The position numbers were made by a program, and so were the translations under genes. Under the pieces are notes generated by a model. It saw only the letters and a list, made by a program, of their open reading frames with translations. It was not told where the DNA came from and did not search any database. Shown here in pieces: positions 1,734 to 4,125 of a DNA stretch of 10,362 nt. Each line of letters begins with the position of its first letter. Position 1 is the first letter of the stretch. The stretch comes from Candidatus Collierbacteria bacterium (GTDB lineage Bacteria; Patescibacteriota; Microgenomatia; UBA1400; MFAQ01): the NCBI GenBank assembly GCA_003531665.1, contig DQFC01000016.1, positions 1-10,362 on the forward strand, read 5' to 3'.

Positions 1734-3044
1734 ATGTTTGATGTAGATAAAGTCAGAGCAGATTTTCCGATCCTGAAAAGGAAGATTCACGGGCATGATT
1801 TGGTTTACCTTGACAGTGGAGCCACCAGCCAGAAGCCGGAAAGCGTAATTAAGGCGATGGATGACTATTACAGGAATACAAATGCGAATATTCACCGAGG
1901 TGTTTATGAGCTGTCGGTGGAGTCCACTAGACTGGTAGATGAAGCAAGAAAAAAGGTGGCTGACTTTATTGGGGCCAGAACCGAAGAGGTGATCTTTACC
2001 AGAAATGCCAGTGAGAGTTTGAATCTGGTCATGTATTCGTGGGGCAGGGATAATATAAAAAAAGAAGACGCGGTACTCATCAGTAAACTTGAACATCACT
2101 CGAATCTAGTACCATGGCAAGAACTATGTAGGGAGACGGGTGCGGAGCTGAGAATTATTGATGTCGATGGAGAGGGAAAACTTGTGATGAGAACTCAAGA
2201 ACTCAAGAACTCAAGAACTCAAGATGAGGTATTAACTGAGAACGGATTAAAGGTGAGGTTGGGGGGTTTTGAAGGTTTAATAGCAGACGGAAAAGTGAAG
2301 TTGTTTGCCGTTACCGGGGCATCAAACGTGCTGGGAACAATTCCCGATCTTGCAGGTATGCTGACAGCGATAAAAAGAAAGGCCCAAAATGCAACGGTGG
2401 TGGTGGATGCTTCGCAGATGGTGCCTCATATGAAGGTAGATGTGAAGACTCTGGGAGCGGACTTTATCGCTTTTTCCGGACACAAAATGCTAGGACCCAC
2501 TGGAACGGGTGTGCTTTGGGGGAAGAAAGAAGTATTGTCAAAGATGCGTCCGTTCTTGTTTGGCGGGGACATGATCGGTGAAGTCATAATTACGGGGGCA
2601 ACCTGGGCGGATCTGCCTAGCCGATTTGAGGCCGGAACACCAGATATTGCCGGAATAATCGGACTGGGTGCGGCGGTGGATTATCTTGAGGGGTTGGGAA
2701 TGGATAATGTACGACATCATGAGAAGGACCTGATGGTCTATGCTTTGAAAAAAATGGTGGAACTTCAGGATGAGGAGTTGGTGACGGTTTATGGACCCAA
2801 AGACGTCGAAGAGAGAGGCGGGGCACTGGCCTTTAACGTGATTGGAGTACATCCTCACGATGCGGCTCAGATATTGGACAACTTTGGAATTGCTGTACGG
2901 TCCGGTCAGCACTGTGCCGCACCACTGGTCACGGGTTTTGGTGTACCGGCGATGGTGAGAGCCACTTTCTACGTGTACAACACCAAGAAGGAAATTGATT
3001 ACTTGGTTGATAAAATAAGAGAAATACCCAAAATATTTACATAA
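1734..3044 (+). CDS. sufS: SufS cysteine desulfurase (group II, PLP-dependent)
   Basis: Takes sulfur from L-cysteine as an enzyme persulfide and passes it on for Fe-S assembly, here presumably to SufU. The 436 residues show the full aminotransferase class V signature: LDSGATSQKP (about 26-35), NIHRGVYELS (52-61), EHHSNLVPWQ (120-129), VDASQ with Asp225 and Gln228 for the PLP ring, and FSGHK with Lys251 as the PLP lysine. They continue with RFEAGTPD (297-304), the catalytic Cys394 in RSGQHCAAPL and a conserved Arg409. The usual length is about 405-415; the excess is an insertion of roughly 27 residues between IIDVDGEG (about 141-148) and the strand before ASNVLGT (196-202). Part of it is coded by four 8-bp tandem repeats. 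The usual HVSN motif reads GASN. The start at 1734 gives the normal N-terminus. It has no Shine-Dalgarno, but a promoter-like pair lies just upstream. Identity is firm. Confidence 0.96.
   Translation: MFDVDKVRADFPILKRKIHGHDLVYLDSGATSQKPESVIKAMDDYYRNTNANIHRGVYELSVESTRLVDEARKKVADFIGARTEEVIFTRNASESLNLVMYSWGRDNIKKEDAVLISKLEHHSNLVPWQELCRETGAELRIIDVDGEGKLVMRTQELKNSRTQDEVLTENGLKVRLGGFEGLIADGKVKLFAVTGASNVLGTIPDLAGMLTAIKRKAQNATVVVDASQMVPHMKVDVKTLGADFIAFSGHKMLGPTGTGVLWGKKEVLSKMRPFLFGGDMIGEVIITGATWADLPSRFEAGTPDIAGIIGLGAAVDYLEGLGMDNVRHHEKDLMVYALKKMVELQDEELVTVYGPKDVEERGGALAFNVIGVHPHDAAQILDNFGIAVRSGQHCAAPLVTGFGVPAMVRATFYVYNTKKEIDYLVDKIREIPKIFT
2191..2222 (+). repeat. Tandem octanucleotide repeat (4 perfect copies) inside sufS
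   Basis: The unit GAACTCAA is repeated four times without error, followed by GA. It codes for residues about 153-163 of SufS (RTQELKNSRTQ), so the protein shows an 8-residue period. Since 8 is not a multiple of 3, gain or loss of one or two units shifts the frame, and only changes of three units keep it. The repeat lies in a family-atypical insertion. Confidence 0.95.
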
Positions 3045-3053
3045 ACACAAAAC

Positions 3054-3662
3054 ATGAATATAAGAACGATAACCTTTGACTTGGATGGTCTTTATTTTCC
3101 GGATGGTAAGCATAAGTTCATGCAAGCTGTAGCGAATCTTGGGGTACATCAGGACGAAGTGAAGAGAGTATTTTTGAAGTCTGATCAAATGATGAAGGAA
3201 TATAAAACGGGTAAGATGGGTGATGAGGAGTTCTGGACTTGGGCCAAACATGAATGGAAGCTGGGCTTATCCTGGCGCGACCTAATAAAAAAATTGATCG
3301 ATTCTTATAGTGTGGATGAGAGAGTGGCGGGTGTTGTTAAGAAACTTAGAGTGAGTGGATATCAAACTGCAGTTTGCTCAGACAACTTTCCGGCACGAGT
3401 AAATGGCTTGCAGGAAAAGTATGGATTCTTAGATAATTTTGATGTAAAAGTCTTTTCCTATGAGGTTGGGGACACAAAGTCTGGGGTGAAAATATTTAAG
3501 GCGTTGGTTGATAAATCTGGAAGTGTACCAGAAGGTATTGTATTTGCGGATGACGAAGAGAGTAAATTACTTCCAGCAAAGGAAGTTGGAATCACGACAA
3601 TGTTATACTCCGGATTTGAAAAATATTTAGATGACCTTAGAAGTGTGGGGGTGAAAATATAA
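3054..3662 (+). CDS. HAD-superfamily hydrolase
   Basis: A 202-residue haloacid-dehalogenase-type phosphohydrolase. Motif I is FDLDG with Asp9 (nucleophile) and Asp11. A helical cap spans about residues 18-90. Motif II is VCSDN with Ser109. Motif III is Lys142 in TKSGVKIF, the place of KPDPEIF in relatives. Motif IV is FADDEE with Asp166-Asp167 for Mg2+. This fits a small-molecule phosphatase of the phosphoglycolate phosphatase/beta-phosphoglucomutase-like group; the substrate cannot be read from sequence. No signal peptide, so it is cytosolic. It lies 9 nt after sufS and 1 nt before sufU, so it is embedded in the Fe-S operon. No Shine-Dalgarno precedes its ATG. Whether it serves Fe-S assembly (for instance clearing a metabolite) or is only a passenger is unknown. 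The fold call is firm, the function open. Confidence 0.85.
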   Translation: MNIRTITFDLDGLYFPDGKHKFMQAVANLGVHQDEVKRVFLKSDQMMKEYKTGKMGDEEFWTWAKHEWKLGLSWRDLIKKLIDSYSVDERVAGVVKKLRVSGYQTAVCSDNFPARVNGLQEKYGFLDNFDVKVFSYEVGDTKSGVKIFKALVDKSGSVPEGIVFADDEESKLLPAKEVGITTMLYSGFEKYLDDLRSVGVKI

Positions 3663-3663
3663 A

Positions 3664-4092
3664 ATGTCCGATTACAAAGATATTATTATTGATCATTATA
3701 AGAATCCTAGAAACTTTGGGGAGATGGATCGTGCCGACATATCGATGGATGAGTCAAATGCATCTTGCGGAGATATGATACAGATACAGGTGAAGACGGA
3801 AACCAGGACTGATGGAGTGAGATTGCCACACCCCGATGGAATCGGGGTTCGCAATGACGAAGGAGGAGATTTGGTAATTAAGGAGATGAAATGGAGAGGG
3901 GTGGGGTGTGCGATTTCCACAGCGGCCGCCAGCATGCTGTCGGAAAAAATTGTGGGAATGAACAGAGAAGATCTGGAAAAATTTGGGGAAGCTGGAATCG
4001 TAGAGATGCTAGGAGGAGAAGTGAATGTCGGTAGAATGAAATGTGCTACACTCGCCTATCGAGGATTATTGAAAATATTTAATAATGAATAA
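3664..4092 (+). CDS. sufU: SufU/IscU-type sulfur relay or scaffold protein
   Basis: Zinc-dependent sulfurtransferase that would accept the persulfide from SufS Cys394, or act as a scaffold. The N-terminus YKDIIIDHYKNPRNFGEM is classic for the family. Ligands are Cys35 and Asp37 (NASCGD), Cys82 (GVGCAISTAAASML) and Cys127 (RMKCATLAY). Arg/Met/Lys precede the last Cys, as in SufU, rather than the His-Cys of IscU. Two differences stand out. Cys35 to Cys82 is 47 residues, against 25 in B. subtilis SufU (by memory of that sequence), because about 22 residues are inserted, partly coded by a palindromic element. Cys82 to Cys127 is 45, against 62, so the loop typical of SufU is missing. The start is 1 nt after the HAD stop, with GGGGGTG upstream (3646-3652). 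The family is firm; whether it is a relay or scaffold is uncertain. Confidence 0.92.
   Translation: MSDYKDIIIDHYKNPRNFGEMDRADISMDESNASCGDMIQIQVKTETRTDGVRLPHPDGIGVRNDEGGDLVIKEMKWRGVGCAISTAAASMLSEKIVGMNREDLEKFGEAGIVEMLGGEVNVGRMKCATLAYRGLLKIFNNE
3821..3858 (+). repeat. REP-like palindromic element inserted in frame within sufU
   Basis: A perfect 8-bp stem ACCCCGAT/ATCGGGGT (3830-3837 and 3841-3848) encloses a GGA loop. Outside it lies a second 5-bp stem ATTGC/GCAAT (3822-3826 and 3851-3855) across a small internal loop. The GATTGC...GCAATGAC ends are those of short palindromic repeats I recall from many bacterial genomes. Here the element is read through as R-L-P-H-P-D-G-I-G-V-R-N-D of SufU, in the part absent from relatives. 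Confidence 0.65.
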
Positions 4093-4094
4093 TT

Positions 4095-4125
4095 TGATGG
4101 ATTCCTGCCTTCGCAGGAATGACAA
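4095..4125. repeat. REP-like intergenic palindrome after sufU
   Basis: ATTCCTGC (4101-4108), a CTTC loop and GCAGGAAT (4113-4120) form a perfect 8-bp hairpin flanked by GG and GACA. The pattern GGATTCC...GGAATGACA resembles widespread REP-type palindromes. No T-run follows, so it is a poor intrinsic terminator, though it could protect the 3' end of the suf transcript. It occupies most of the 52-bp gap between sufU and the DsbA-like gene. Confidence 0.65.

Follow-up and report, generated by a model that had tools for sequence, protein, structure and literature searches.

A CGTC-tagged, REP-like palindrome read in frame within a SufU loop that carries different repeats in related Candidatus Collierbacteria

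How does a palindrome resembling a mobile repeat come to be translated inside the gene of an Fe-S assembly protein? The question is raised by sufU in the window, by which we mean the whole stretch of 10,362 nucleotides that was analysed (Table 1). The encoded protein retains its reading frame and the core ligands of the NifU/IscU/SufU proteins, three cysteines and an aspartate (Cys35, Asp37, Cys82 and Cys127). It is scored by Pfam NifU_N at 71.8 bits (cut-off 22), and its best NCBIfam match is the SufU model TIGR01994, at 75.8, below the cut-off of 92.5. The spacing between Cys35 and Cys82 is 47, an excess of 22 residues over the 25 of relatives. This value of 25 was found in G005, G009, G012 and G014, with 26 in G011 and 28 in G003. 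In an alignment made by eye, the empty-loop relative G005 has five residues (MGNGM) where the source protein has residues 45-71. In the AlphaFold model, built on an alignment of 48 of the 120 listed homologues, residues 58-66 have pLDDT below 50 and lie between strands 38-47 and 70-80.

Table 1. Positions in the window of sufU, its loop and the associated repeats
Feature	Position	Strand	Basis
sufU, NifU_N/SufU family protein, 142 aa	3664-4092	+	profile matches, ligand residues
SufU codons Cys35; Cys82; Cys127	3766-3768; 3907-3909; 4042-4044	+	translation
Expanded SufU loop, residues 45-71	3796-3876	+	by-eye alignment with G005
Family-A palindrome, two-tier, inside sufU	3822-3855	+	sequence inspection, pattern copies, folding
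CGTC end tag (GACG on +)	3856-3859	-	GAC is followed by G in 16 of 19 family-A matches
GGAGTGAG abutting the 5' side of the palindrome	3814-3821	+	family-A flank comparison
Palindrome-coded peptide RLPHPDGIGVRNDE, SufU residues 53-66	3820-3861	+	in-frame translation
Family-B palindrome GGATTCC..GGAATGAC, just past the sufU stop codon	4099-4123	+	
sufS, cysteine desulfurase	1734-3044	+	profile match
AGAACTCA tandem array, 4.4 units, in frame in sufS	2190-2224	+	sequence, loop comparison

The palindrome reads ATTGC-CAC-ACCCCGAT-GGA-ATCGGGGT-TC-GCAAT and is followed by GACG, which is CGTC on the other strand. Its outer arms are 5 bp long (ATTGC, 3822-3826; GCAAT, 3851-3855), its inner arms 8 bp (ACCCCGAT, 3830-3837; ATCGGGGT, 3841-3848), and the loop is of 3 nt (GGA, 3838-3840). 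It measures 34 bp, or 39 bp with the tag and the leading G, and codes for about 14 residues (53-66) of the 22-residue excess, the remainder being flanking sequence. Single-stranded DNA folding of 3805-3866 returned exactly this two-tier structure, with -10.7 kcal/mol and a z of -2.71, and 3 of 200 shuffles folded as well. Taken alone, the fold exceeds chance only modestly; the strong evidence for the element is its recurrence in the genome. An earlier note on this DNA had described the two-part palindrome, the 22 additional residues between Cys35 and Cys82, and the retention of the frame and the zinc ligands. All three were confirmed, the palindrome being reproduced by folding and recurrent. 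The coordinates under which it listed the element, 3797-3864, do contain the repeat and also take in flank.

The sufU palindrome belongs to a multicopy family, here called family A (the names family A, family B and octamer, as well as the loop classes, were coined in this analysis). The pattern of this family, ATTGC..GCAATGAC, has 19 matches in the 1.0-Mb source genome, against 0 for the reversed-pattern control; one of them (L050, in an HD-like reading frame) is probably due to chance. The tag is CGTC in 16 of these 19 matches, and GGAGTGAG is exact in four of them (L039, L040, L056 and L057), with GGAGGGAG in its place in a fifth (L042). Several copies of the source genome lie within open frames, so that the description of such palindromes as usually seen between genes, given in the earlier note, is only partly apt. 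As in-frame inserts we counted those of SufU, DusB and the MBL-fold protein, each compared with orthologues, leaving out L043, L044, L054, L056, L067 and L070. The inner hairpin was studied in 45 copies, a set that omits four loci (one with N, one chance match and two overlapping a short site). These copies have 41 distinct inner segments, and their longest inner stem averages 3.93, compared with 2.87 in shuffles, reaching at least 4 in 29 of them, although only 7 of the 45 copies, taken singly, fold better than their shuffles at the 0.05 level. This suggests that the pairing of the inner hairpin has been kept up.

Family B (GGATTCC..GGAATGAC) has 13 copies in the source genome and 0 in its control. 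The T before GG is present in all 13, and the tag is TGTC in 10 and CGTC in 1. The example behind sufU reads, at 4098-4124, TGTC ATTCCTGC GAAG GCAGGAAT CCA. At another locus (L067:872-1567, minus strand), a family-B palindrome is read as VIPAQAGIH directly after a signal-peptide-like N terminus.

Beyond the source genome, in which it has 16 matches, a stricter family-A pattern is present in 13 of 54 genomes (source genome counted). Seven of the eight other genus members have 15-82 matches and G003, the eighth, has none; five further genomes outside the genus have 11, 10, 3, 1 and 1. The control yielded two matches in total over the 54 genomes, one each in G029 and G048, and single family-A matches therefore mean little. 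G004 holds a 39-base copy identical to the sufU element at another locus (L113, G004:C21), within a 310-codon open frame (stop to stop). There, the identical 39 bp are read in the same frame, near the frame start and after a hydrophobic stretch.

The same SufU loop is filled differently in other species. Of the six SufU loci of named relatives, five are from Candidatus Collierbacteria and one is labelled Woesebacteria, which places the window in a CPR (Microgenomates) genome. The spacing of the loop-carrying relatives ranges from 35 to 50. G004 has family B (SGWIPGQARND, spacing 35), G001 has B and A in tandem (50) and G002 a short A (39); octamer-derived sequence, decayed in G013, fills the loops of G006, G007, G008 and G013 (36-38). 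A search of 5.8 billion proteins returned 504 SufU matches, of which 120 were listed. Among these 120, the loop is empty (spacing of 28 or less) in 46 and the spacing exceeds 28 in 74, in which we recognised the octamer (32), other extra sequence (23), A (14) and B (10); five carry two repeat types, and outside the genomes with DNA the classes were assigned by peptide pattern only. Two further kinds of loop peptide recur in this set, one PTS..KASLGAGD-like (P0051, P0054, P0069, P0077, P0098 and P0117) and one RSSMVD.RGDG-like (P0042, P0048, P0049, P0057, P0063 and P0076). Judged by their peptides, both may derive from further repeat families.

The element is one copy of a multicopy family, the loop of some relatives is empty, and A, B and the octamer share this loop in different species. 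Multiple copies and sufU orthologues lacking the element, which the earlier note had named as proof of insertion, were both found (19 matches; relatives with a spacing of 25). The outcome that it had named as refuting, an element without further copies and a conserved peptide loop whose DNA forms no palindrome, did not occur, the loop being unconserved and holding other repeats in sister species. Its proposal of a mobile repeat adding a loop to an Fe-S assembly protein is thus supported by copies elsewhere and by empty-loop orthologues. There is strong support for the in-frame insert and for its recurrence. It is likely that a CGTC-tagged REP-like repeat was inserted in frame in the sufU loop, and that this loop serves as a recurrent, tolerated landing site. 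Repeats would reach the predicted beta-hairpin loop of SufU by insertion, and the inserts would persist because the loop is exposed, lies between metal ligands in sequence and stands outside the conserved core. Since empty, single, tandem and decayed states are found in close relatives, the birth and fate of repeat-derived loops can be traced stepwise.

Other genes show similar loops. Other members of the genus have the octamer AGAACTCA of sufS in their SufU and DusB loops as well. In the SufS loop itself, G007 has the octamer, as in the source genome (G000), G002 has a similar sequence, and G008 has a family-A palindrome (EIASVRSTETRND); others have neither the octamer nor family A there. The DusB loop holds family B in the source genome, octamer sequence in G006 and G008 and another extra sequence in G004, and it is short in most other relatives (13 of 16 loci aligned; L065 at G000:C19 and L114-L127). 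Three octamer arrays lie within the range of the DusB gene of G008. In the MBL-fold protein, the source genome has family B read in reverse (VIPAKAGIH) and G008 a different reverse-read B core (VIPGLTRNP), with other extra sequence in G001 and G004 and a short loop in 9 of the 13 aligned, out of 16 loci (L063 at G000:C16 and L130-L142). DusB and the MBL-fold protein were chosen for their inserts in the source genome, and hence what they document is that inserts recur in given loops, not how often they do. The suf cluster also contains an unassigned 211-aa ORF (1074-1709) and a HAD-like gene (3054-3662), and no orthologues of these two were found in the suf regions examined from 13 relatives.

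A second property of these repeats is their strand polarity. Along its contigs, G001 has a single minority-strand family-A site among the 79 listed, G004 has two among 67, and neither G008 (36 listed) nor G000 (12) has any, the expected numbers being about 28, 22, 11 and 3, respectively. A and B occur together on 42 contigs of six genomes (two ties left out) and have the same strand on 41 of these, and the octamer has the strand of A or B on 20 of 20; reversal of the octamer gives back the array in a shifted register, so that a reversed control is uninformative. Repeats on one strand per contig, counting A, B and the octamer, were noted in G000, G001, G002, G004, G005, G007 and G008. The locally G-rich strand carries the repeat at 52 of 59 loci (three loci left out). 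The single contig of G002 has 15 stricter family-A sites on one strand and 0 on the other, one of the 15 being a short site that a looser pattern matches on the other strand too. With a still looser pattern, 18 stretches of this genome gave 8 minus and 1 plus, and its sole family-B copy has the orientation opposite to that of A. An exception is G007, with both strands on 4 of 15 contigs having at least two family-A sites (by eye), and in G024, from another family of the same order, family-A-like copies are mixed in orientation, with some nearby inverted pairs.

Insertion into single-stranded DNA at the replication fork has been documented for IS200/IS605 transposases (PMC6006769), and insertion of this type would give one-strand repeats. 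Three Y1 proteins are encoded in the source genome, all with HxH and YIxxN (HUH, Y(x3)N). Their best NCBIfam model is the REP-associated tyrosine transposase, at 42.3, 39.8 and 71 bits, under its cut-off of 80. Y1 genes were found in 17 of 20 genomes, with at most a weak association with family A across genomes (by eye). No A, B or related patterns were found in 11 Y1 regions of about 3-5 kb (three of the source genome, eight of relatives), and consequently no REPtron is claimed; CGTC repeats elsewhere likewise have no neighbouring transposase in the accessible text of PMC3733652. Nor were target-site duplications seen in the loop DNA of SufU in relatives, where they were sought by eye. With a confidence just short of even, we infer that a trans-acting HUH/Y1 (RAYT-like) enzyme moves or copies the palindromes in single-stranded form, acting on one replication strand. 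Such action would yield both the one-strand contigs and the forward-reading SufU loops. The polarity would account both for the forward reading of the recognised palindrome-derived SufU loops and for the reverse reading of the two MBL-fold ones; the reverse-reading patterns VIP[GAD] and VIA[SN] occur in 0 of 119 parsed SufU loops. Selection on the peptide may also lie behind the forward-only reading in SufU, but was set aside given that the polarity is chromosome-wide.

The one-strand orientation could instead be a by-product of extreme strand asymmetry, arising from mutation, slippage or selection and not from single-strand transposition, and this we regard as rather unlikely while giving it real weight. 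The non-palindromic octamer arrays share the polarity, so that its cause may be wider than transposition. GC skew is negative in all 18 stretches reported for G002 (MFAS01000001), a genome whose cumulative GC skew has been described as falling continuously; for the lineage, strong asymmetry is described in the accessible text of the same paper, which proposes mostly one-directional replication for a sister lineage (PMC7143001). However, G and C are almost equally frequent in the conserved ends of family A, and base drift therefore cannot convert one orientation to its opposite. With respect to adjacent open frames the copies are, moreover, mixed in orientation: in G000, A is co-oriented in 5 cases and opposed in 20, and B in 7 and 11; for family A in the relatives the numbers are 12 and 25.

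A different objection concerns the number of events, since sufU loop alleles might have spread mostly by recombination or horizontal transfer, with few true insertions. G001 and G004 have the same B element with the same adjoining bases and yet are not sisters on a six-gene tree of 14 genomes, whose support inside the genus (36 to 96) is too weak for counting insertions. In addition, the core tree of SufU gives the loop labels little structure: a quick tree needed 11 changes for A, compared with a mean of 13.5 for shuffled labels, and 9 for B, compared with 9.7. Counts this close to those of shuffled labels are expected from high turnover, from a poorly resolved tree (104 columns) or from recombination. 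On the loop-free SufU tree the fewest changes are 11 for A, 10 for B and 25 for the octamer, with ranges of 10-12, 9-10 and 23-26 over 200 of 1000 bootstrap trees. When branches under UFBoot 95 were collapsed, at least 7, 7 and 14 changes remained, and at 99 there were 6, 6 and 12; in these collapsed trees polytomies were resolved for the fewest changes, the state changes include losses, and recombination could add to them. The A cores and flanks nevertheless differ among G000, G001 and G002, several families are involved and other genes behave alike, all of which implies repeated insertion somewhere. A predominance of transfer over insertion is considered unlikely.

If inserts have come repeatedly to this loop, its DNA could be a preferred sequence target, beyond mere tolerance. 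The recurrence of several repeat kinds at one SufU loop would fit this, and so would a rough estimate (about 50 copies per Mb and a loop of about 60 bp), which predicts well under 0.01 family-A copies per loop compared with the 14 of 120 listed. The same rough estimate, however, places tolerance alone within a few-fold of the observed number if about one-tenth of the genome tolerates inserts. Non-palindromic octamer arrays share the SufU loop, and the same behaviour is seen in SufS, DusB and the MBL-fold protein, with sequences that are unrelated; targeting of this kind seems quite unlikely. It is even less probable, in our judgement, that the loop has been co-opted for a function such as partner binding and that inserts are selected beyond tolerance. 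An insert common to the SufU proteins P0001 and P0002, which are 88% identical, has been kept for some time, and the prevalence of long spacings among the listed homologues (74 of 120) points in the same direction, but close relatives differ freely in the sequence and length of the loop, and the 46 listed homologues with no insert speak against it as well. Finally, a chance palindrome in an ordinary variable loop, which the few shuffles that fold as well might have suggested, is refuted by the copies, namely the 19 matches against a control of 0 and the identical 39 bases in G004.

Setting tolerated, repeated insertion beside the polarity, we arrive at a broader picture that is held a shade more tentatively than the enzymatic mechanism itself: palindromes of Collierbacteria would enter one replication strand of a one-directionally copied chromosome as single-stranded DNA, and the loops of SufU, SufS, DusB and the MBL-fold protein would repeatedly turn them into protein. 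If true, mobile DNA would be undergoing a continuing, clade-wide conversion into loops of core enzymes, and polarity would independently mark the direction of replication. It is possible that one-strand repeats mark one-directional replication. Repeat polarity would then be a marker of replication besides base composition, by which the one-directional proposal set out in PMC7143001 becomes testable.

Among known systems, the nearest are the CGTC-tagged REPs of Di Nocera, De Gregorio and Rocco (2013; PMC3733652), which, like the present repeats, are short palindromes in many copies whose end motif (CGTC, TGTC or CCTC) is unpaired; some are intragenic, and the accessible text places no transposase alongside. 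Family B fits their published form, with a stem of 8-9 bp, a loop of 4-5 nt and a CCA tail, whereas family A, the sufU copy included, differs in its stem, which an internal loop splits into 5 + 8 bp, in its 3-nt loop, in its highly variable inner part and in lacking a CCA tail. The published REPs are mainly head-to-head dimers, while family A is here nearly always co-oriented on contigs, and the phyla named in the accessible text do not include the CPR. Many intragenic REPs are described in the same work, with different REPs near the same recB site in two Xanthomonas species, so that intragenic REPs, and even one shared site, were already known.

The earlier note had drawn a parallel with Rickettsia palindromic elements, or RPEs (Ogata et al. 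2000, 2002; via PMC10969869), which holds as a way of working and not as membership. In both cases palindromic mobile DNA is translated in frame in unrelated host proteins, here SufU, DusB and the MBL-fold protein as judged against their orthologues. However, RPEs are about 150 bp long, compared with about 40 bp and 14 residues here, and occur in different bacteria; the filling of a single loop by repeat families that vary from species to species is a feature of the present case. In view of the length, and since the comparison drew on descriptions of RPEs, we do not claim membership. RPE-4 and RPE-6 of R. conorii have themselves been assigned to the CGTC-tagged REPs (PMC3733652).

REPINs and RAYT-associated REPs (PMC3116915, PMC6006769) are also short-tagged hairpin repeats, and RAYT-like Y1 proteins are present in the genome. 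The tag here, however, is CGTC and not of the GTAG type described for them, the Y1 genes examined have no flanking repeats and inverted pairs are few. Extra residues in the SufU scaffold are likewise known from Gram-positive bacteria, in which 19 residues, described as a conserved signature, are inserted after the second cysteine and before the third (PMC2644719). The insert of the source protein, in contrast, lies between the first and second cysteines and varies among species.

The literature searched yielded no account of REPs within coding genes of CPR bacteria, most subscription papers lying outside the search. Intragenic REPs and RPEs are mostly known as scattered cases, and here unrelated repeats have come to occupy one loop of one conserved protein many times over. 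As far as the literature was searched, what is new is the occurrence in a CPR clade, the refilling of one loop, in many species, with repeats of different families, and a polarity on the scale of the chromosome.
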